Below are positions 20,280-30,639 of a stretch of 41,218 bases of DNA, in pieces. The position numbers were made by a program, and so were the translations under genes. The stretch's first letter is position 1, and every line of letters starts with the position of its first letter. The DNA comes from Natrialba taiwanensis DSM 12281. GTDB lineage: Archaea > Halobacteriota > Halobacteria > Halobacteriales > Natrialbaceae. The notes under the pieces are model-generated. The model had not been told where the DNA came from and searched no databases. It was given only the letters and a program-made list of their open reading frames with translations. The stretch covers positions 51,174 through 92,391 of the forward strand of contig NZ_AOIL01000032.1 in assembly GCF_000337595.1 (NCBI RefSeq), given 5' to 3'.

Positions 20280-20579
20280 CTATTTTTCTGTCTCTTTCGG
20301 CCTGGTTTCCACGCCAGGGGTGTGACTCCGCTCTTCTCCTGCGTTGTGGGGTGTGTGATTTCACCCTCCATCCGATCACGGAACGTCGACGATTGGATAC
20401 CAATGGGCATATCTAGACAAAATTGGTAATTCAAATATCCGTTAATTATATCACTCCGTTCGTGATTCCCTCCGAGTGTGATCACGCAGTGTGAAATAAC
20501 ACCAAGAAATCAATAAAATCCGGAGAGACGTGAGATCCGCGTTGTGTGGCAATTACTGGGGTTCAAGAGACACATCTAC
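20280..20579. other. intergenic region upstream of the large protease
   Basis: About 300 bases without a recognisable gene. The right half is AT-rich (AAATTGGTAATTCAAATATCCGTTAATTATATCAC region, around 20420-20455, and AAATCAATAAAATCC near 20505) and should contain the promoter of the protease gene. Confidence 0.45.
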
Positions 20580-23500
20580 ATGACAGACATACGAGAACGG
20601 TTCATGGCTGTGCTGCTCTCCGTGCTGCTGGTGCTTTCGCTCGTCGCGATCGCCGGTGCCGGACTGGCAGGCAGTGCAGTCGCAACAGAGGGAATCGAAA
20701 CGCAATCAACCGATACATCGGCCGCCCCTGCAACGGTCGATCCCGCACTCGACAATGCAGAGGGGACCGAGGAAGTCTACATCATCCTCGATCAGTACGA
20801 CGGTGAACTCGGCGACGACCGCGAGCAGGCGATCGCCCGCCTCAAGGAGTTCGCGGCGGAGTCACAGGCCACCGTGACGGCGGATTTAGACACTCTGTCC
20901 GGCGTCGAGGTGATAAACACCTACTGGATCACGAACGCCGTCCGCGCCGAAGTCGATACGACCGCCGTCGACACGGCTGAACTCGCGTCGATCGAGGGCG
21001 TGCGGACGATTCAGCTCAAGCCGGAATACCAGGTGACGGAGCCGGTTAACCAGTCCGCCGCCGACGCAACTCCCGACGCGGACGAGTTCACCTACGGCCT
21101 CGAGCAGGTCAATGCGTCCGAGACGTGGAACGACTTCGGCACGCAGGGCGAGGATGTCAAGGTCGCAGTGCTCGACACTGGCTTCGATGTCAGTCACCCG
21201 GACCTCGACCTCTATACCGAGGATGCGGACGATCCGACGTATCCGGGCGGCTGGGTCGAGATCGGCCCGGACGGTGAGCCGGTCGAGGGCTCCGAGCCGC
21301 ATGATACGCACTATCACGGAACGCACGTCGGCGGTACGGTCGGTGCCGATGCGCCGACCGACGGCGAGACGCCCGCGTACGGCGTCGCTCCGAACGTCGA
21401 CTTGCAGCACGCACTCGTGTTGCCCGGCGGGTCGGGAGCCGACTCGGACACGCTCGCCGGCTTCGAGTACGTCATCGAAGACATGGACACCGACGTCGTC
21501 AGCATGAGCTTCGGCGCGGGCTGTGGCCTCTTCGGTCCGGTCTACGACGACGCCTGGATTCCGGCGATTCAGAACGCTAACGACGCCGGCGTCGTGGCGG
21601 TTACCTCGGCCGGCAACTCCGGCGAGGGCTGTGTCGGTTCGCCAGCGAACATCTACGACTCGTTCGGTATTGGTGCCTCCGACGAGGACGGCAACATCGC
21701 CGACTTCTCGAGCGGCGACACGATCGCGGGCGACAACTGGGACGAACCGGATCCGGAGTGGCCCGACGAGTGGATCAAACCGGACGTCTCCGCACCCGGT
21801 GCGGACGTGCTGAGCGCCGCACCCGGCGGCGAGTACGACACGCTCTCGGGCACGTCGATGGCCGCCCCGCACACGTCGGGCGTCATCGCGCTCATGCTCG
21901 GGGCAAACGACGATCTCACCGCCGAGGAGGTTCAGTCGACGCTCGAAGAAACCGCCTGGAAACCCGACGACGCACCCGACGAGAAAGACGTTCGCTACGG
22001 CCACGGCATCATCGACGCCCATGCGGCCGTCGACGAGGTCGCCGCAGGCGCGCTCGAGTACGAACTCGGCGACGTCGACCAGGACGAGTCACTCACCGTG
22101 CAGGACGTGCAGCTGACACAGCAGTACCTGCAGGATATGGAGCCCGAGCCGTTCGCCCAGGGACTCGCTGATTTGGACCGTGACGGCGAGGTCACCACGA
22201 CCGACCTGAACCTGCTCCAGCAGAAGGTTCAGGGCACTCTCACAGAGGGTGAGATCACGATTTCCGGCCTCGACGTTCCCGACGAGGTCGACCAGGGCGA
22301 GACACTCGAGGTCACCGTCGACCTCGAAAACCCCGGCGACGAAGGGGCAGTACAGGAACTCAACCTCTCCCTGAACGACACGAGTGATGAACCGGTCGCA
22401 ACCGAAGTCGTCGACATGGCCGCACCCGGCGTCGACGATCCGATCGACCACCCGGCCGAGACGACGATCACGGTCGAACTCGACACCGCGGCCATGGACG
22501 GCGATACATACACCCTTACGGTCACGAGCGAGGACGACGACGCGTCCGCCGAGTTCACCGTCCGGGCCTCGAACTTCGAGGTCACGTCCCTCGACGCGCC
22601 GGCCGAAGCCGACCGCGGCGAGGAGATTACCGTCAACGCGACGGTCGAAAACACGGGGAACGTCGATGATACCCAATCCGTCGAGTACCGGTTCGACGAC
22701 CTGGACGACGCGCTCCTCGCACAGAACGTCACGCTCGCGCCCGGCGACGACGCGACGGTCTCCTTCGAAGCCGACACGGCGAACGTTTCGGCGGGGACCT
22801 ACGAGCACGGCGTCTTCACCGAGGATGACGCGGCGACGGACACGATCGATATCCACGAAGCGTTCTTCAGCGTCGACATCACCGACGCGCCGGCCGAACT
22901 CGCGCCCGGCGAGTCCTACAACGTCAGCGCCGTCGTCGAGAACACCGGCGGCGCACCGGGCGACCAGGAGGTCGTCTACGAACTCGGCGAGGGCGACGTC
23001 GCTGTCGTCGACGTTGCTGCGGATACCTCGCAGGGCGAGGCTGTCGCTAGCGTGTTAGACGACCGGCTCAACAACGACACCTACACGGTCGATGTCGTCA
23101 CTGCGGATACGCTGCTCGACGCGATGGACGACTACGATACGTTCGTCATCCAGCGCTTCGGCAGCGACACGATCGCGTCGGACTTCCTCGACGAACTCGA
23201 GGAGACCCAGAGCGCGGTCTACCTCGACTCGCACCAGGGCGGCACGGCGGAGACCTACGCTGACGGCGTCTTCCGTCTCAACAACGTCCGCGAAGATCCC
23301 GCGGAGCGCGACTCCGAGGGACTCGGCACGTCGAGCGATCCCGTCACGATCGACATCGACCAGGATCACGCCGTCTTCGCCGGCGTCGGCGAGCCCGGTG
23401 ACACCGTCGAGATGTACACCGGGACCACGACCTGGGGAAGCTGGTTCGACAACTACAGCGGCACGACGCTCGCGACCGCCGACTATGGCGGCGACTACGC

Positions 23501-25634
23501 CGGTCCGTCTGTCGCCGTCAGCGACGACGGCAGCGAAGTCTTGCTCACCGCCACCGGTCGCGACTACTTCACCAACGAACCGGACTTCACCGACGAGGCG
23601 AACCAGTTGCTGACAAACGCCGTCGAGTTCGCCACGACCGGCGGCGTGACGGCCGAGGCCGAGACGGTCGACAATACGACCCTCGTCTCCCTGGAGCCGG
23701 GAGAGAGCGAGCAGGTACCGTTCTCGGATACCGTGCCCGCTGACGCCGAGGCGGGCGATGCGAGCCACATCGTGGCCAGCGCGGACGAACAGGACTTCGT
23801 CTCGGTCACGATCGACGACGGCCCGAACTGGGCCGTCAAGGGAACGGTCGCCGACGCTGCGACCGACGAGCCGATCGCAAACGCCAGCGTCGAACTCGAA
23901 GCTGGAAACGAGACCTACACGAACGTGACCGACGCCGACGGACAGTACGGGCTCGCAAACGTCCCCGCGGGCGAACACGAGCTCACGGTCACGGCCGAGA
24001 ACTACACAGATCGGACCGTCTCCGTCGACGTACCGGAAAACGAGACGGTCACGAAAGACATCGCCCTCGACACGCTGTCGGGAACGATCAGCGGCGAGGT
24101 CACGGCGAGTGACGACGGCAAACCCGTCGAAAACGTCACGGTCGTCGCCGAGAACGGCGACGGCGAGGTCTATGAGACGACGACCGACGAGAACGGCACG
24201 TACGAACTCGACGGCGTCTCGGCCGGCACGTACGTCGTCGATGTCGCCGACACGCCGCCGGGCTTCGAACCTGAGGAGGTCATCACCGTTGCGCCTGGCG
24301 AGCACGTCGACGGCGTCGACTTCGAGATCGACCGCACCGCCGGCTCGATCGAGGGCTACGTCACGAACGCCGCCGGTATTCCGATCGCAGAAGCGAACGT
24401 CGTCGACGCCGACAACGGCGCGTTCAACGCGACCACGAACGAGAGCGGCTACTACGAAATCACGAACGTCACGCCCGGCACGAACGCGCTCCGAGCGACC
24501 GCCGACGGCTACGACGACTCGAACGTCGAGTTCGTCGAGGTCGAGACCGGCGAGACGACGATCGCCAACCTCACCCTCGGCACCTACTTCGAGGTCGGCG
24601 ACCTCGCAGCACCCGACACCGCCGCGCCTGGTGAAAATATCACCGTCAACGCGACGGTCACCAACACCGGCGACCAGACGGACACCCGTACGGTGTTCTA
24701 CTTCCCGCCGGGCACCGACTTCGGTCCCGACGTGATCGACACCCAGAACGGACTGTCCGAGACGGTCACGCTCAACGGCGGCGAATCGACGACGGTCGAG
24801 TTCACCTACGAGATTCCTGCCGGCGACGAGCCGGGCGAGTACGAACACGGCATCTCGGCCGACGAGGTCGAGTCGACGACGATTACGATCGACGGCGACG
24901 ACGGCGGCGACGCAACCTTCGACGTGAGTGAACTCGACGCGCCCGCGACGGCCGGTCCGGGCGAGACCGTGTCGGCCAATGCCACGGTCGAGAACACGGG
25001 CGACGCCGCCGGTACGCAGAACGTGACGTACGCATTCGACAACGAAACCGTCGCCGAGACGACCGTCTCGCTCGACGCGAACGAGACGGCGATGCTCGAG
25101 TTCACCGCCGACCTTCCAGACGCCGAGGGAACGTACGAGCACGTCGTCGCCTCGGCAAACGCGTCGGCGACCGCACAGACGACCGTCGAGAACGACAGCG
25201 AGCCGGACCCGGCGTACTTCGAAGTCACCGAACTCGCCGGGCCGGATGTCGTCGACTCCGGCGACGAACTGACGATCAACGCGACGATCACCAACACCGG
25301 CGACGAACTCGACGAACAGGACGTGTTCCTGTTCTGGGACACCACGGCGGCCGAGATCGATCTCGAAGACGGCGATCGATCGGCCGACGAACGCCGCGAG
25401 GCCGGCGTCGACTCGATGGCGACGATTGAACTCGACGGCGGCGAATCGGAAACGGTGTCGCTCACCTACGCGGTCGAGAACGACACCGAACCGGGTACCT
25501 ACCAGTACACGGTCTCAACGCTGCAGGAGATGGTCGACGGCGAGGTTACTGTGGAAGCGTCCGATGATGTCTCGATCCTGCCGGTCCGCGGCGGGCACGG
25601 AATGCAGTCCGTTGGAACCGCGCTGCTCGGCTGA
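20580..25634 (+). CDS. large secreted subtilisin-like serine protease with dockerin-like, CARDB and carboxypeptidase-regulatory domains
   Basis: This 1,684-residue exported protease begins with a hydrophobic signal (MAVLLSVLLVLSLVAIAGAG). An inhibitor-I9-like propeptide follows (~55-145), then a peptidase S8 domain with Asp199 (VAVLDTGFDVSH), His249 (HGTHVGG), Asn346 (SAGNSGEG) and Ser426 (SGTSMAAPH). A dockerin-like pair of calcium loops (GDVDQDESLTVQDVQ and LADLDRDGEVTTTDL, ~497-554) comes next. The tail has two CARDB domains, a third CARDB split by a ~215-residue insert (about 805-1020), three carboxypeptidase-regulatory repeats (~1083-1334) and three more CARDB domains. The C-terminus ends GMQSVGTALLG with no PGF sorting motif or anchor helix. 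A GTG at 20544 is also in frame; the ATG at 20580 is chosen for the signal peptide. Confidence 0.93.
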   Translation: MTDIRERFMAVLLSVLLVLSLVAIAGAGLAGSAVATEGIETQSTDTSAAPATVDPALDNAEGTEEVYIILDQYDGELGDDREQAIARLKEFAAESQATVTADLDTLSGVEVINTYWITNAVRAEVDTTAVDTAELASIEGVRTIQLKPEYQVTEPVNQSAADATPDADEFTYGLEQVNASETWNDFGTQGEDVKVAVLDTGFDVSHPDLDLYTEDADDPTYPGGWVEIGPDGEPVEGSEPHDTHYHGTHVGGTVGADAPTDGETPAYGVAPNVDLQHALVLPGGSGADSDTLAGFEYVIEDMDTDVVSMSFGAGCGLFGPVYDDAWIPAIQNANDAGVVAVTSAGNSGEGCVGSPANIYDSFGIGASDEDGNIADFSSGDTIAGDNWDEPDPEWPDEWIKPDVSAPGADVLSAAPGGEYDTLSGTSMAAPHTSGVIALMLGANDDLTAEEVQSTLEETAWKPDDAPDEKDVRYGHGIIDAHAAVDEVAAGALEYELGDVDQDESLTVQDVQLTQQYLQDMEPEPFAQGLADLDRDGEVTTTDLNLLQQKVQGTLTEGEITISGLDVPDEVDQGETLEVTVDLENPGDEGAVQELNLSLNDTSDEPVATEVVDMAAPGVDDPIDHPAETTITVELDTAAMDGDTYTLTVTSEDDDASAEFTVRASNFEVTSLDAPAEADRGEEITVNATVENTGNVDDTQSVEYRFDDLDDALLAQNVTLAPGDDATVSFEADTANVSAGTYEHGVFTEDDAATDTIDIHEAFFSVDITDAPAELAPGESYNVSAVVENTGGAPGDQEVVYELGEGDVAVVDVAADTSQGEAVASVLDDRLNNDTYTVDVVTADTLLDAMDDYDTFVIQRFGSDTIASDFLDELEETQSAVYLDSHQGGTAETYADGVFRLNNVREDPAERDSEGLGTSSDPVTIDIDQDHAVFAGVGEPGDTVEMYTGTTTWGSWFDNYSGTTLATADYGGDYAGPSVAVSDDGSEVLLTATGRDYFTNEPDFTDEANQLLTNAVEFATTGGVTAEAETVDNTTLVSLEPGESEQVPFSDTVPADAEAGDASHIVASADEQDFVSVTIDDGPNWAVKGTVADAATDEPIANASVELEAGNETYTNVTDADGQYGLANVPAGEHELTVTAENYTDRTVSVDVPENETVTKDIALDTLSGTISGEVTASDDGKPVENVTVVAENGDGEVYETTTDENGTYELDGVSAGTYVVDVADTPPGFEPEEVITVAPGEHVDGVDFEIDRTAGSIEGYVTNAAGIPIAEANVVDADNGAFNATTNESGYYEITNVTPGTNALRATADGYDDSNVEFVEVETGETTIANLTLGTYFEVGDLAAPDTAAPGENITVNATVTNTGDQTDTRTVFYFPPGTDFGPDVIDTQNGLSETVTLNGGESTTVEFTYEIPAGDEPGEYEHGISADEVESTTITIDGDDGGDATFDVSELDAPATAGPGETVSANATVENTGDAAGTQNVTYAFDNETVAETTVSLDANETAMLEFTADLPDAEGTYEHVVASANASATAQTTVENDSEPDPAYFEVTELAGPDVVDSGDELTINATITNTGDELDEQDVFLFWDTTAAEIDLEDGDRSADERREAGVDSMATIELDGGESETVSLTYAVENDTEPGTYQYTVSTLQEMVDGEVTVEASDDVSILPVRGGHGMQSVGTALLG

Positions 25635-26128
25635 GCGGTTCTGATACACCACTCACGACGCCGATTTTTTCGAGGGGTATGGCGGATCGGTAGCTCCATC
25701 CGGCTGTGAAACACCGTTCGTATGGGCGATTCCGTTCAAAATCTGCATACTGCAGCCGTGCATTCGTCTTTAGCTACGAGAAGAACCGCAGTACAGCAGT
25801 AGCTCATCGCGTATTCTTCTCGAGAGAAATGGGGTGGGAATAGATGTGTCCAACAGTGACTCCATTTATGAATAATTAATAATGTGTTGTGGGTAGTGTG
25901 AAACGGGTGCATGCTGTGCCCAATCCTCTTGAGATATCTTCTTCACCGTGACTGTATGGATTTCTTGTTAATTGTATAATTGGAGACATTCACTATATAT
26001 AGTAATTAACTACTAGATGATAGTCGATATTTTTGTTATTTCACTATTTTAGGAGTATAATAATGCATTTTGTTATAAAGATTTAAGTCTCATAGCAGTT
26101 GACCTATTCTTGGAATGAATCTCCGCCG
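25635..26128. other. AT-rich intergenic region before the poly-gamma-glutamate operon
   Basis: About 490 bases with no gene I can support. A six-T run at 25665-25670 after the protease stop could be its terminator. From about 25860 the base composition drops sharply in GC (ATAATTAATAATG, TATATATAGTAATTAAC), ending in TTATAAAGATTTAAG at 26072-26086, a likely promoter. The change in composition marks the edge of a lower-GC block. Confidence 0.55.
26072..26086 (+). promoter_or_regulatory. probable promoter of the poly-gamma-glutamate operon
   Basis: TTATAAAGATTTAAG lies about 27 bases before the TTG at 26099 and 43-57 bases before the ATG at 26129. It is the best TATA-like sequence ahead of the operon. 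Confidence 0.45.
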
Positions 26129-27319
26129 ATGCAGCAAATGCAGATTTTGGAAGGTGACCGAGTTATGATTGCTGCCGCATTAGTCATGATCGTTGGTCTC
26201 GCCATCGGGGCTGTCGTAACTCATATGACTGGACTTCGGTTAGGTGGTGTGATTGTAGCACCGCTACTCGCAGTCTACTCTCTTTACTCCTTTGTTGCAC
26301 TCCCGATGTTTCTCATTAGCGGGGCCATCGCGTACTGTCTCGTTGGGATCATACGAGCACGCACGCTTATCTACGGGCGGCAGTTGCTACTCACAAGTCT
26401 TGTCGTTGGAGCAATCACGCCAATCACTGCCCACGTGATCATTAGCTCGTGGTCTCTCGGAATTTCAGAGATGGCGTTCTTCGGCGCGGTTCTCCCCGGT
26501 ATCACGGCCTACAACTACCACAAACTCGAGCCGGAAGACCGCTGGTCTGACCTGGCATTGAGCGGTGGATTGGTTGCCGGTCTCATCGTCTTCGGTGCGG
26601 CGATTGTGAATCCTACGGTCGCCACGCAATTGGGGTCGGGATTAACCTCTGTGCTGTTCACTCCTGGATCAGACATTGCAGCGTTCCGCAACGCTATCCA
26701 GGGAGTTCCGTCGTCAGGGGGCGTTGTCGGCCAGATATGGCTGATCGTTCTACTCGGGTTTGGCCTACTGATCTCCGAGGCAGCGCACTCTCGGTGGGGC
26801 GTTCGGCTGGGTGGGTTAGTTGCTGTCCCACTCCTCGCCACCATGGCACTCACGAACGCGTGGACCGTCGGAGTGTACGTAATTGTGCTGTCAGCCACCT
26901 TTACAGCCATCACGGCCATCAACAGACTCACACTCATCTACGGCCGGGCGCTGTTGAACCTCGGACTTATCGTTTCGATGATGTCCGGGATACTCATCGC
27001 GTCAGCCACAACTACGGTTTCAGGATTCACGTTATTCTTCGTGGTTCTGCTCTCCGGGGTTGGGGCCTATAATTTTCACCGAGTCGCACCTGCCGAACGA
27101 TTCGAATCGCTCAGTCTGTCGGCAGGACTATTCGCGAGTCTACTGGTCGGTGTTAGACTATTCATCGACCCGACAGCTGATGGCCTCTTAGCTGATCCAT
27201 CAGTACCTGAAATCTCAGTAATCGTCAGCGTACTCGTGCTCGCAGCCTATTGCGTATGGACGCTTGAACAGCGCCGTATGACCGTTGCGAAACACCACGC
27301 TAGGGGGGTATCTGCATGA
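26129..27319 (+). CDS. PgsC/CapC-like poly-gamma-glutamate synthesis membrane protein (duplicated)
   Basis: The protein (396 residues) resembles PgsC/CapC, the membrane subunit of poly-gamma-glutamate synthase. Characteristic stretches are LRLGGVIVAPLLAVYSL and ARTLIYGRQLLL. Both recur in the second half as VRLGGLVAVPLLATMAL and NRLTLIYGRALLNL. PgsC of Bacillus is about 150 residues, so this looks like two PgsC units fused, each with its own conserved AYN(Y/F)H(K/R) loop (TAYNYHKLEPEDRW and GAYNFHRVAPAERF). There are roughly ten to twelve membrane helices. A TTG at 26099 and the ATG at 26165 are alternative starts. The stop overlaps the PgsB start by four bases (ATGA). Confidence 0.75.
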   Translation: MQQMQILEGDRVMIAAALVMIVGLAIGAVVTHMTGLRLGGVIVAPLLAVYSLYSFVALPMFLISGAIAYCLVGIIRARTLIYGRQLLLTSLVVGAITPITAHVIISSWSLGISEMAFFGAVLPGITAYNYHKLEPEDRWSDLALSGGLVAGLIVFGAAIVNPTVATQLGSGLTSVLFTPGSDIAAFRNAIQGVPSSGGVVGQIWLIVLLGFGLLISEAAHSRWGVRLGGLVAVPLLATMALTNAWTVGVYVIVLSATFTAITAINRLTLIYGRALLNLGLIVSMMSGILIASATTTVSGFTLFFVVLLSGVGAYNFHRVAPAERFESLSLSAGLFASLLVGVRLFIDPTADGLLADPSVPEISVIVSVLVLAAYCVWTLEQRRMTVAKHHARGVSA

Positions 27320-28524
27320 GCGGAAAACAATACTCAACCCAAGACATCACTAACGGTGTCAGCAACTCTATCAAACACACCGCTCGAGCGCTCTTCCGTG
27401 GGATAACTCATAAACGTCGGCTCGACGGTATCGATGCCAAGATCGTTATCTCCGGCACCCGGGGGAAGTCGTCTCTCACGAAGTGGACACACGATATTCT
27501 CTATGACCGGGAGTACGACGTCATGGCGAAGATTACTGGCAATAACCCGATTACGGTCCACAACACTGTCAAGAAGCCTATCTTACGCGGATCCCGAGTC
27601 CGGTTATACGAAAACGCGAGAGAACTCTCGCAGCACACGCCGAAGGACGTGATGATCCTCGAGAATCAAGCGATTAGTCCCTACACCACGCGGATGTTCA
27701 ACAGTGTGTTTTCCCATCCCGACGTGGTCGTCTTGAGTAACATCCGCGAAGACCATCTATCAACGTTGGGTGCTGACAGATACAAAGTAGCTCGAGGATT
27801 GGTCAGAGCAATTCCAGAGGGGACCCATGTCGTCAACGCGGAACAGGATCCGAACTTACAGGAGTACATCGAGACTGAGGTAGAGCGGCGTGGCGCGACC
27901 GTAAGTCACGTCTCTGTCCCTGATAAGTACGCCAACATCCCCGGTATCGAATCAGTTTATGCACTCAATGAGATACTTCGGGCGATCGGGCTGAATCCGC
28001 TATCAGACGACAAACTCGCAGTATACCGGAAGAAGATGTCCGTTGAGTGGACTCGTCTCTCCAACGGAAGGATCCACAATGCGGCCGAGGTCAACGACGT
28101 CCAAAGTACCGAGATGATCCGACAGGCACTGGTCTCAAAGGACCCCTCCATCGGTAAGATTACACCGTTTGTCTATCTTCGAGGTGATCGACGTGGACGG
28201 ACAGTGTCCTTCTTACACTATCTTACAGAACTCTATGAGGATGGTGCCATCGACGACGTCCACATCGCCGGTGAGACGACGAAAGCGTTCAGTCAAAAGG
28301 CTGATTTCCCAGTCATTATCCACGACGATACGAAGGATCCTGCGGACGAGGTACTTGGCTCGCTGCTCGCTGAGGAACGCCCTGTGATCATTATGGGCAA
28401 CACAGTTGCTGACTGGATGCGCGACCTTGAGCGTGCGATCGACGCTCGAACGGTCGATACTGACCAATTGGTCGGCCTCACTCGTGGGGAAAAATCCGAG
28501 CAACAGCCGGTTGTGACCAGATAG
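27316..28524 (+). CDS. PgsB/CapB-like poly-gamma-glutamate synthase ligase
   Basis: This 402-residue enzyme belongs to the Mur-ligase-like PgsB/CapB family, which uses ATP to join glutamate through its gamma-carboxylate. The P-loop GTRGKSS is at residues 47-53, as in PgsB. Other family marks are AKITGNNPITV, MILENQAISPYTTRMF and the strongly conserved VVLSNIREDHLSTLG. The C-terminal half has VYLRGDRRGRT and IIMGNTVADW, matching the region where PgsB binds the growing chain. Its ATG overlaps the PgsC-like stop, so the two are translated together. GC content is lower than in the flanking genes. Confidence 0.9.
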   Translation: MSGKQYSTQDITNGVSNSIKHTARALFRGITHKRRLDGIDAKIVISGTRGKSSLTKWTHDILYDREYDVMAKITGNNPITVHNTVKKPILRGSRVRLYENARELSQHTPKDVMILENQAISPYTTRMFNSVFSHPDVVVLSNIREDHLSTLGADRYKVARGLVRAIPEGTHVVNAEQDPNLQEYIETEVERRGATVSHVSVPDKYANIPGIESVYALNEILRAIGLNPLSDDKLAVYRKKMSVEWTRLSNGRIHNAAEVNDVQSTEMIRQALVSKDPSIGKITPFVYLRGDRRGRTVSFLHYLTELYEDGAIDDVHIAGETTKAFSQKADFPVIIHDDTKDPADEVLGSLLAEERPVIIMGNTVADWMRDLERAIDARTVDTDQLVGLTRGEKSEQQPVVTR

Positions 28525-28632
28525 CACACCCCCTCGAACCGCCGTCTTCCCCCTTTGTATATAGATATTTCTATACTAATATTTTTAGGACAGAAACGGT
28601 ATTTTTAATAGGTATCGGTAATATGTAATACC

Positions 28633-29745
28633 ATGGCTGAAAAACAGTCTGGTAATACAACACGGCGCGCATTGATGGGCGGACTAGTAAGTACCCCTCT
28701 TCTGGTCGGTGGGGCCGTTGCTGGATACGAGGCAACCTCACGAAGGAACACCATCGAATCTGTTAACCAGAAGGCAGTTGACCGAGACGGCGAACTCACG
28801 CAAACGACGCTTGGAAAGACCGACTCCGGATCAACGGGTGATGGTGACGCTTTCACGTATCTGAGCGCAACGTCTGACCTACTGAACAACGTTGGTCGAA
28901 CGGTCGGCGAACAGGTCCGCGTCCAACGGAATGATGATGAGGTCGCCGTCTACACGATCCAGGGTGAACTCTCCGGAGACGGGCCGGGGGTTGCTGGTAA
29001 CGCTCTCTCGCGGGCGCGCCTTGACCTCAACAATAGTAACTGGGAAGTCAACAATAGCGACCAGGAAAATCTCGGAGACTGCCGCCTGGCCTGTCCACGA
29101 CCAGAGGCGTCTGTCCCGATCAACGATGACGACGAAGTCGATGTCGATGTTAATCCAATGGTCGTCAACCCGGACCTGAGCGTCGAGGAAGCTCAGGAAT
29201 CGGACGATTACGTTGAGGTGAGCAAGCAAACAGACTCGGATGTTATCGTGCTCTCGCCCCACGGCGGAGACGTGCAGCCACATACTGGCGAGCAAGCTGA
29301 GACAGTTGTCGATGAACTGAATGGCGACGTCGATCACTGGGGCACCCGTGGATATCGTAACGGCAGTGGTGCGTTCGTCAGATGGTACGTCCCGTCCTAC
29401 AATATGTCCGAGGCATCGTATCCCGAACTTGCGGAGGTTAGCGAGAATGAATACGAGTACGCAATTGCGTTCCACGGTACCTGCGACCCCACGATCCAGA
29501 TTGGGGGTCAGGCACCCCAGTCGTTCCGCGAAGAGGTTCGTGATGCAATTAACGATGCGCTCGAGGGAACGGACCTGAACGCAGTGCTGGGAACTGACGA
29601 GTACCGTGTCGATGGAGACAATACGCTAGTGAACCGTCTCGCCATGCGCTGTGCGATCTGGATCGGCCAAGACGAAGAGTCGCGAGAGCAGTACGGTATG
29701 GAGATTGCTGAAGCCGTCGCTGGCGTCCTTGAATCGCGCGTATAA
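28633..29745 (+). CDS. Tat-exported poly-gamma-glutamate hydrolase (PF05908-like)
   Basis: The 370-residue protein has a twin-arginine-type N-terminus (NTTRRALMGGLVSTPLLVGGAVAG), so it is exported, though whether it is cleaved or stays anchored is unclear. The C-terminal half matches the poly-gamma-glutamate hydrolase family (PghP-like): His210 in VLSPHGGDVQPHTGEQ, Glu220 in the same stretch, and His281 in AIAFHGTCDPTI, consistent with a zinc site; TRGYRNGSGAFVRWYVPS and IGGQAPQSFREEV also fit. It lies 108 bases after the PgsB gene. In bacteria the third partner of PgsBC is the PgsA/CapA exporter-factor, which is absent here. This protein may cut, release or remodel the polymer. Confidence 0.83.
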   Translation: MAEKQSGNTTRRALMGGLVSTPLLVGGAVAGYEATSRRNTIESVNQKAVDRDGELTQTTLGKTDSGSTGDGDAFTYLSATSDLLNNVGRTVGEQVRVQRNDDEVAVYTIQGELSGDGPGVAGNALSRARLDLNNSNWEVNNSDQENLGDCRLACPRPEASVPINDDDEVDVDVNPMVVNPDLSVEEAQESDDYVEVSKQTDSDVIVLSPHGGDVQPHTGEQAETVVDELNGDVDHWGTRGYRNGSGAFVRWYVPSYNMSEASYPELAEVSENEYEYAIAFHGTCDPTIQIGGQAPQSFREEVRDAINDALEGTDLNAVLGTDEYRVDGDNTLVNRLAMRCAIWIGQDEESREQYGMEIAEAVAGVLESRV

Positions 29746-29924
29746 CTGAAGTACTGAATAGAAGAACAGACTCGCTCCTCGGTGACCGTCCAACAGAAAC
29801 AGTACGCGGTCGCCGAATCGTGGGCGAACTCTACCACGTACTCTCTTCTATTGTGAGGCGCTGTCTAGTTACTTGACTTCGTACGTTATGCTGCTGGAGT
29901 GTGTAGAGAGCGTGTGAACCGAAG

Positions 29925-30377
29925 ATGTTGCCGATTACGTCTTTCTTGTCGTGTACTGAGCCAATCGATCAGTTAGTGTGTTTCTCGAAGAGGCAGACAT
30001 ATCACGCGAAAACGTGCGTCACGAGAAGTAGCTGGAGCGAAGTTCCACCTACTCCACACCGTCACCGACCAGACGGTCGAACACTTCAGCGTCACAGACG
30101 AGAAAACGCACGACAGTACAGAGTTTGAGACAGGATTGTGGCTGGAAGGACGGTTAGCGATCTTCGATCTCGCCTCCTTCAAGTATCGGCGGTTCGCGCC
30201 TTCCCTTGGAAGGCAAGATAATCTTCGACATCGTAGACGAACTCTCCCGCAAGTACATCGACGTGGAAGTCGAGGTTGAACTCGACCGGAGAGAGTACGC
30301 GGGACGCAGTCACGAGAAACGGTTTCGCGTCGTCGGCGTTATCGTTACGGACGCCGATGACTACCATCTGTACATCA
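29925..30377 (+). pseudogene. ISH8-like IS4-family transposase, left part (interrupted and decayed)
   Basis: The N-terminus MLPITSFLSCTEPIDQLVCF reads in one frame, then LEEADISRENVRHEK in another, ending at a stop. After a missing stretch comes VAGAKFHLLHTVTDQTVEHF and KTHDSTEFETGLWLEGRLAIFDLASFKYRRF, then after a second deletion LEGKIIFDIVDELSRKYIDV to DDYHLYIT. These blocks have the order of an ISH8-type IS4 transposase, with the first catalytic Asp region lost. The coding sequence breaks at YHLYIT and continues in frame after 39252 (TLSREEF), showing that a later element split it. Confidence 0.85.
30370..30377 (+). repeat. target-site duplication GTACATCA (left copy)
   Basis: This 8-bp word is immediately left of the inserted block and is repeated exactly at 39244-39251. 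Removing one copy plus the block restores the transposase frame from YHLYIT to TLSREEF. Confidence 0.85.
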
Positions 30378-30391
30378 CTGAAGTCGGCTAG
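30378..30391 (+). repeat. outer terminal inverted repeat, left
   Basis: CTGAAGTCGGCTAG starts the element directly after the target duplication; its partner is at 39230-39243 in reverse orientation. Confidence 0.8.
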
Positions 30392-30639
30392 CTTGATTTG
30401 TCATGCATAGTCCCATGTGAAATTTATATCCGATTGATTCCAATGTCCATCGTGCATGAGAACAGCATCTGCCTGACTTCAGCTCTGAAGAGTTCAGATG
30501 AGAGTTCACGACTCAACAAATAGAGCGCTTTAGTGGACCCCAAAAATCAATTAGAAGCTTTAAACAAGCAATGGCAATACCCCATCGGTTCTTCCGCAGA
30601 CAGAACACCTAAACGAGAAAATGCCGAAACTAGGCTGTA

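Follow-up and report, generated by a model that had tools for sequence, protein, structure and literature searches.

Among described systems for poly-gamma-glutamate (PGA) synthesis, the closest are the PgsBCA/CapBCA systems of B. subtilis and B. anthracis, in which a Mur-ligase-type PgsB and a membrane PgsC are encoded together. An earlier sequence-only reading of the DNA studied here held that known bacterial systems need PgsA for assembly or export. This is too strong, as B. subtilis pgsBC overproduces PGA without pgsA, the polymer then being L-rich (PMC6029982). In archaea, capC and capB genes occur together in Haloquadratum walsbyi, for which a complex of the bacterial CapBCA type was proposed; a hydrolase-like third gene goes unmentioned in the available part of that report (PMC1544339). 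Archaeal PGA consists of L-glutamate alone and reaches very high mass, and Natrialba aegyptiaca (N. aegyptia hereafter) is reported to make L-PGA of >1000 kDa (PMC3815933).

PGA is cleaved by the gamma-PGA hydrolases PghP and PghL (YndL), members of PF05908 and MEROPS family M86. In PghL, the zinc ligands are His41, Glu46 and His102, the catalytic Glu165 is the counterpart of carboxypeptidase Glu270, and PGA contacts include His77, Asn151 and Arg171; in PghP, alanine changes at His40, Glu45, His78, His103 or Glu165 are deleterious (PMC6506827).

The window analysed here is a stretch of 41,218 bases (G000:C32:51174-92391) from a Natrialba-like genome of 70 contigs. It carries a + strand trio at 26165-29745 that differs from PgsBCA/CapBCA in having a tandem-duplicated PgsC, the gene order C-B, no adjoining PgsA/CapA and, as third gene, a PF05908 pseudo-hydrolase.

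Organisation of the locus

The features of the operon and its 5' region are listed below with their basis.

25860..26164, + strand: AT-rich intergenic stretch 5' of pgsC, probable promoter/leader (sequence read)
26165..27319, + strand: pgsC-like gene, two tandem CapC units, membrane protein (PF14102; half-to-half alignment; conserved Met start)
27316..28524, + strand: pgsB-like gene, ATP-dependent Mur-ligase-type poly-gamma-glutamate synthase (TIGR04012; invariant motifs; AlphaFold2 fold)
28633..29745, + strand: operon-type PF05908 pseudo-hydrolase, 370 aa, twin-arginine signal, PghP/PghL fold (PF05908; AlphaFold2; Foldseek; residue table)

The three genes of the sequence-only reading are real: profile search bore out the PgsC-like (PF14102) and PF05908-like assignments, and the PgsB-like one has a TIGR04012 match below its cut-off together with the expected fold and motifs. 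The low-GC block that it described is likewise real, GC being ~0.52-0.53 at the operon versus ~0.57-0.66 across most of 2-25 kb. Its description of the trio as one tight operon suits pgsC and pgsB, which overlap by 4 bases, and is less apt for the third gene, which follows pgsB after 108 AT-rich bases (-8 to 227 in relatives). A separate promoter for the third gene could lie inside this gap.

Directly 5' of the operon, 20544-25634 encodes a secreted subtilase of 1696 aa that carries dockerin-like, carboxypeptidase-regulatory and CARDB domains. Transposase-like gene remnants lie just 3' of the operon at 29880-30400, both here and in N. aegyptia. The same genome has a second pgsC-pgsB pair on contig C67 (8381-10839; L033) that lacks the third gene; upstream of this pair, a 311-aa protein that matches no Pfam family and an acidic coiled-coil protein of 698 aa are encoded.

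PgsC and PgsB

PgsC matches PF14102 in two stretches (E 3.4e-31), its 108.6 bits passing the gathering score of 27. The protein is a tandem duplication of the CapC domain: its two halves are 34% identical when aligned (E 4e-20), and profiles built from the two half families align to each other at 99.7% probability. Most haloarchaeal PgsC proteins share this duplicated build and are ~390-400 aa long, whereas bacterial PgsC has a single domain, the bacterial model TIGR04011 spanning ~130 positions. A sequence search of the PDB turned up no relative of PgsC. The start previously placed at 26072 is untenable, stops intervening between that position and the gene; the likeliest start is the ATG at 26165, where Met occupies the aligned column in 74 of 75 homologues, with 26129 and 26099 as upstream alternatives.

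PgsB matches TIGR04012 over residues 26-198 (E 8.3e-30) with 103.8 bits against an equivalog cut-off of 222.7, a cut-off that no pgsB copy reached in the 391 Halobacteria searched. The P-loop (G47-R49-G50-K51-S52) and the N-x-R-x-D-H motif (N142-R144-D146-H147) are invariant in 25 PgsB homologues, and the AlphaFold2 model (pLDDT 86) displays a complete Mur-ligase/FPGS fold matching FolC, FPGS and Mur ligases. Both fold and motifs thus uphold the earlier assignment of a PgsB-like protein with a P-loop.

Of the 391 Halobacteria, 74 carry a pgsB-type gene. The stretches around these genes, comprising 82 pgsB calls (one a 96-aa piece) and 80 called pgsC genes, were classed by their neighbours. A PF05908 gene lies directly 3' of pgsB on the same strand at 22 loci in 21 haloarchaeal genomes, the order pgsC-pgsB-PF05908 without an adjoining PgsA being kept in all 22, and 19 of these loci have no CapA within three genes. 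Among the 81 full pgsB loci, a hydrolase-like gene alone was found at 19, CapA alone at 11, both at 3 and neither at 48; because these last 48 have neither gene, a third subunit may be optional. At the pgsC-pgsB-capA loci L042-L044 and L058, which share the duplicated PgsC and PgsB, a gene for CapA (~704 aa) occupies the slot taken here by the pseudo-hydrolase, with an overlap of 4-8 bases with pgsB. In the pgsB tree, most hydrolase-linked genes cluster as a single group, which also includes the second Natrialba pgsB without a third gene.

A response-regulator-like protein (~123-137 aa) is encoded directly before pgsC at L068-L070, L075, L077, L079, L083, L085, L088, L094 and L102-L104, often with an adjoining sensor-kinase-like gene. 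This suggests that PGA synthesis is regulated in loci of this kind.

The third protein has the PghL fold and an altered active site

The third protein passes the PF05908 gathering score of 22 with 38.1 bits (E 1.4e-9). Its AlphaFold2 model (pLDDT 82, core >90) has PghL, the phage PM1 hydrolase and PghP as best solved-structure matches (Foldseek top matches PghL 5onj, 21dc and PghP 3a9l; probability 1.00). Compared with PghP and PghL, it is encoded beside synthase genes and has an extra N-terminal domain and a predicted Tat signal. The twin-arginine motif of the window copy reads TRRALMGG, and all 22 operon-type homologues have the RR pair, in keeping with the export predicted earlier from the sequence.

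Key alignment columns were anchored on four PDB sequences (3a9l, 5onj, 5onl and 21dc). The corresponding features of the window copy are as follows.

28660..28734, + strand: predicted twin-arginine (Tat) signal region TRRALMGGLVSTPLLVGGAVAGYEA, the window copy lacking a lipobox Cys (sequence; RR in 22/22)
29260..29277, + strand: HGGDVQ motif, residues 210-215; His41 retained, Gln in place of zinc ligand Glu46 (residue comparison)
29386..29388, + strand: codon 252, Tyr; substrate His77 equivalent changed (residue comparison)
29665..29667, + strand: codon 345, Gly; catalytic Glu165 equivalent lost (residue comparison)
29683..29685, + strand: codon 351, Arg; gamma-PGA-anchoring Arg171 equivalent kept (residue comparison)

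Across the 22 operon proteins, Glu165 and Asn151 are kept in none, Glu46 in 6, His77 in 8, His102 in 10, His41 in 21 and Arg171 in all. Each of these positions is kept in 33 of 33 PF05908 proteins from outside the operon, twelve of which are encoded close to a pgsB locus. Beyond family and fold, equivalents of His41 and Arg171 are shared with PghP and PghL, while the window copy differs from the enzymes in Glu46 and His77 as well as in Glu165 and Asn151. Its zinc-ligand set reads His, Gln, His in place of His41, Glu46, His102, which is not that of the enzyme. No new conserved acidic residue was seen among the 22 members of the clade. Four operon copies (L056, L072, L086 and L107) keep the His, Glu, His ligand set and the His77 equivalent, and from their sequences these could bind zinc. 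Elsewhere in the window's genome there are three intact PF05908 enzymes; an intact paralogue lies on contig C52.

The invariant loss of the catalytic residue together with the invariant substrate arginine leads us to predict binding without cleavage; PGA binding is not assured, since the contact residue Asn151 is lost in 22 of 22.

The third gene is maintained with pgsBC

The operon proteins form one clade (100/98; present in all bootstrap trees). Their genes are under purifying selection, with dN/dS of 0.05-0.27, similar to pgsB and pgsC. An operon-type profile searched against 391 genomes gave 22 matches at 402-526 bits, every one directly after pgsB. The next match, at 228 bits, is a stop-containing copy in G201, and intact-type proteins score no higher than 198 bits. 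The third gene is associated with pgsB among genomes (Fisher p 5e-17, a value not corrected for species relatedness), full-length operon-type copies occurring only together with pgsB. At one G201 locus (L136), a frameshifted pgsC and an intact pgsB are followed only by a C-terminal stub of the third gene, and G047 and G226, which have no pgsB, retain only C-terminal operon-type fragments. The third gene is intact where pgsBC is intact and decayed where it is not, and is therefore maintained with pgsBC. G201 also has a second operon-type copy, with two stops, sited elsewhere (L135). The full operon-type protein was not found in plasmid and phage records.

CapA is unlinked in this genome and not recognisable in a reported producer

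The PgsA/CapA (PF09587) gene of PgsBCA operons is lacking at the window's locus. The earlier statement that the system is without PgsA/CapA is correct for the locus, there being no PF09587 match on the window's contig. It does not extend to the genome, which encodes one unlinked CapA homologue of 704 aa (E 2.3e-64; contig C64). In this stretch of C64 (2855-5453; L034), the gene has as neighbours remnants of transposases and a PGA hydrolase gene of the intact type that is truncated and frameshifted; lying among such remnants on another contig, it was ruled out as part of the operon locus.

A close-homologue scan of genome contigs found N. aegyptia alone. N. aegyptia DSM 13077 (G350; 18,001 bases identical to NZ_AOIP01000040.1) likewise carries the operon, along with a second pgsCB pair, and its PgsB is 97% identical to the window PgsB. 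In this genome no PF09587 match was better than E 0.17, and the C64 protein's CapA domain had no match. As N. aegyptia has no recognisable CapA, haloarchaeal PGA export would proceed either without CapA or with one too divergent to detect. More widely, 27 of 72 pgsB genomes, and 9 of the 21 genomes with the operon, have no recognisable CapA. A test for mutual exclusion between CapA and the pseudo-hydrolase gave p 0.75 by locus and 0.60 by genome, and exclusion was rejected.

Proposed role of the third protein

We consider it likely that the Tat-exported pseudo-hydrolase is a non-catalytic, polymer-handling subunit of a synthase formed by PgsB and the duplicated PgsC. PgsB would use ATP to join glutamate to the chain, and the tandem-duplicated PgsC would constitute the membrane part of the synthase. 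The third protein, predicted to be exported by Tat and presumably having lost the ability to cleave PGA within a PghP/PghL fold, would be located on the outer membrane face, where it may receive, hold or protect the emerging chain. We infer a surface protein that lacks catalysis, binds PGA and acts as partner to PgsBC; its task is probably to hold or guide the polymer, not to degrade it.

Another possible role, also raised in the sequence-only reading, is functional replacement of PgsA/CapA, the third protein then being the essential extracellular partner of PgsBC. Its export signal, its loss together with pgsBC, its adjacency to pgsCB (22 loci, with no CapA nearby at 19) and the nine operon genomes without CapA, the reported producer N. 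aegyptia included, all point this way. However, there is no statistical exclusion with CapA, neither gene is found at many haloarchaeal pgsCB loci, and B. subtilis PgsBC makes PGA without PgsA (PMC6029982). We regard essential replacement as possible but doubtful and, because CapA and pseudo-hydrolase adjacency are not exclusive, do not claim it on exclusion grounds. The third protein may take over work done elsewhere by PgsA/CapA, the data showing that CapA is often absent. The sequence-only reading took the product of the third gene to degrade or process PGA. A hydrolase or transferase still active through an altered site, which might release PGA or set its chain length, would be in line with PF05908 membership, the fold match to PghL/PghP and the His41/Glu46/His102 zinc-ligand residues kept in some members. 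It is nevertheless decidedly unlikely, given that Glu165 occurs in 0 of 22 proteins with no new conserved acid, that the window copy is without Glu46 and His77, that alanine at PghP Glu45, His78 or Glu165 harms activity (PMC6506827), and that intact paralogues exist in the same genome. The degrading-enzyme idea is accordingly disfavoured.

The fold held in common with hydrolases and the conserved Arg171 would also suit a decoy or shield that binds PGA and guards it against hydrolases, including those borne by haloviruses: gp129 of halovirus HCTV-1 has a PF05908 domain with aligned catalytic residues intact, and many operon loci have an intact-type hydrolase gene beside or near the operon. This proposal is reached by inference, and the strict pgsB dependence and operon position fit a synthase subunit equally well; we judge a shield to be unlikely. 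Decay is highly improbable as an explanation. The lost active-site residues, and the broken copies in three genomes, might indicate a pseudogene hitch-hiking behind pgsB, but reading frames are intact in 22 of 22 across deep divergence, and decayed copies are confined to genomes whose pgsBC is itself lost or broken. The dN/dS of 0.05-0.27 led us to reject the pseudogene reading.

The non-catalytic subunit that we favour provides a concrete reading for the unclear third component of a PGA system. We tentatively propose, at somewhat short of even chances, that a PGA hydrolase was recruited as a dead, chain-guiding synthase subunit, giving an architecture of PgsB, duplicated PgsC and pseudo-hydrolase without PgsA/CapA. 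Among open-access PMC papers, no report of such a dead hydrolase or of the operon was found. Given the pure-L composition and very high mass of archaeal PGA, and the L-rich PGA of PgsA-less B. subtilis, the operon bears on how PGA stereochemistry and length are set. Operon-type genes should not be annotated as PGA hydrolases.

The PF05908 domain of HCTV-1 gp129 (L141, NC_021330.1) perhaps serves to breach haloarchaeal PGA capsules.
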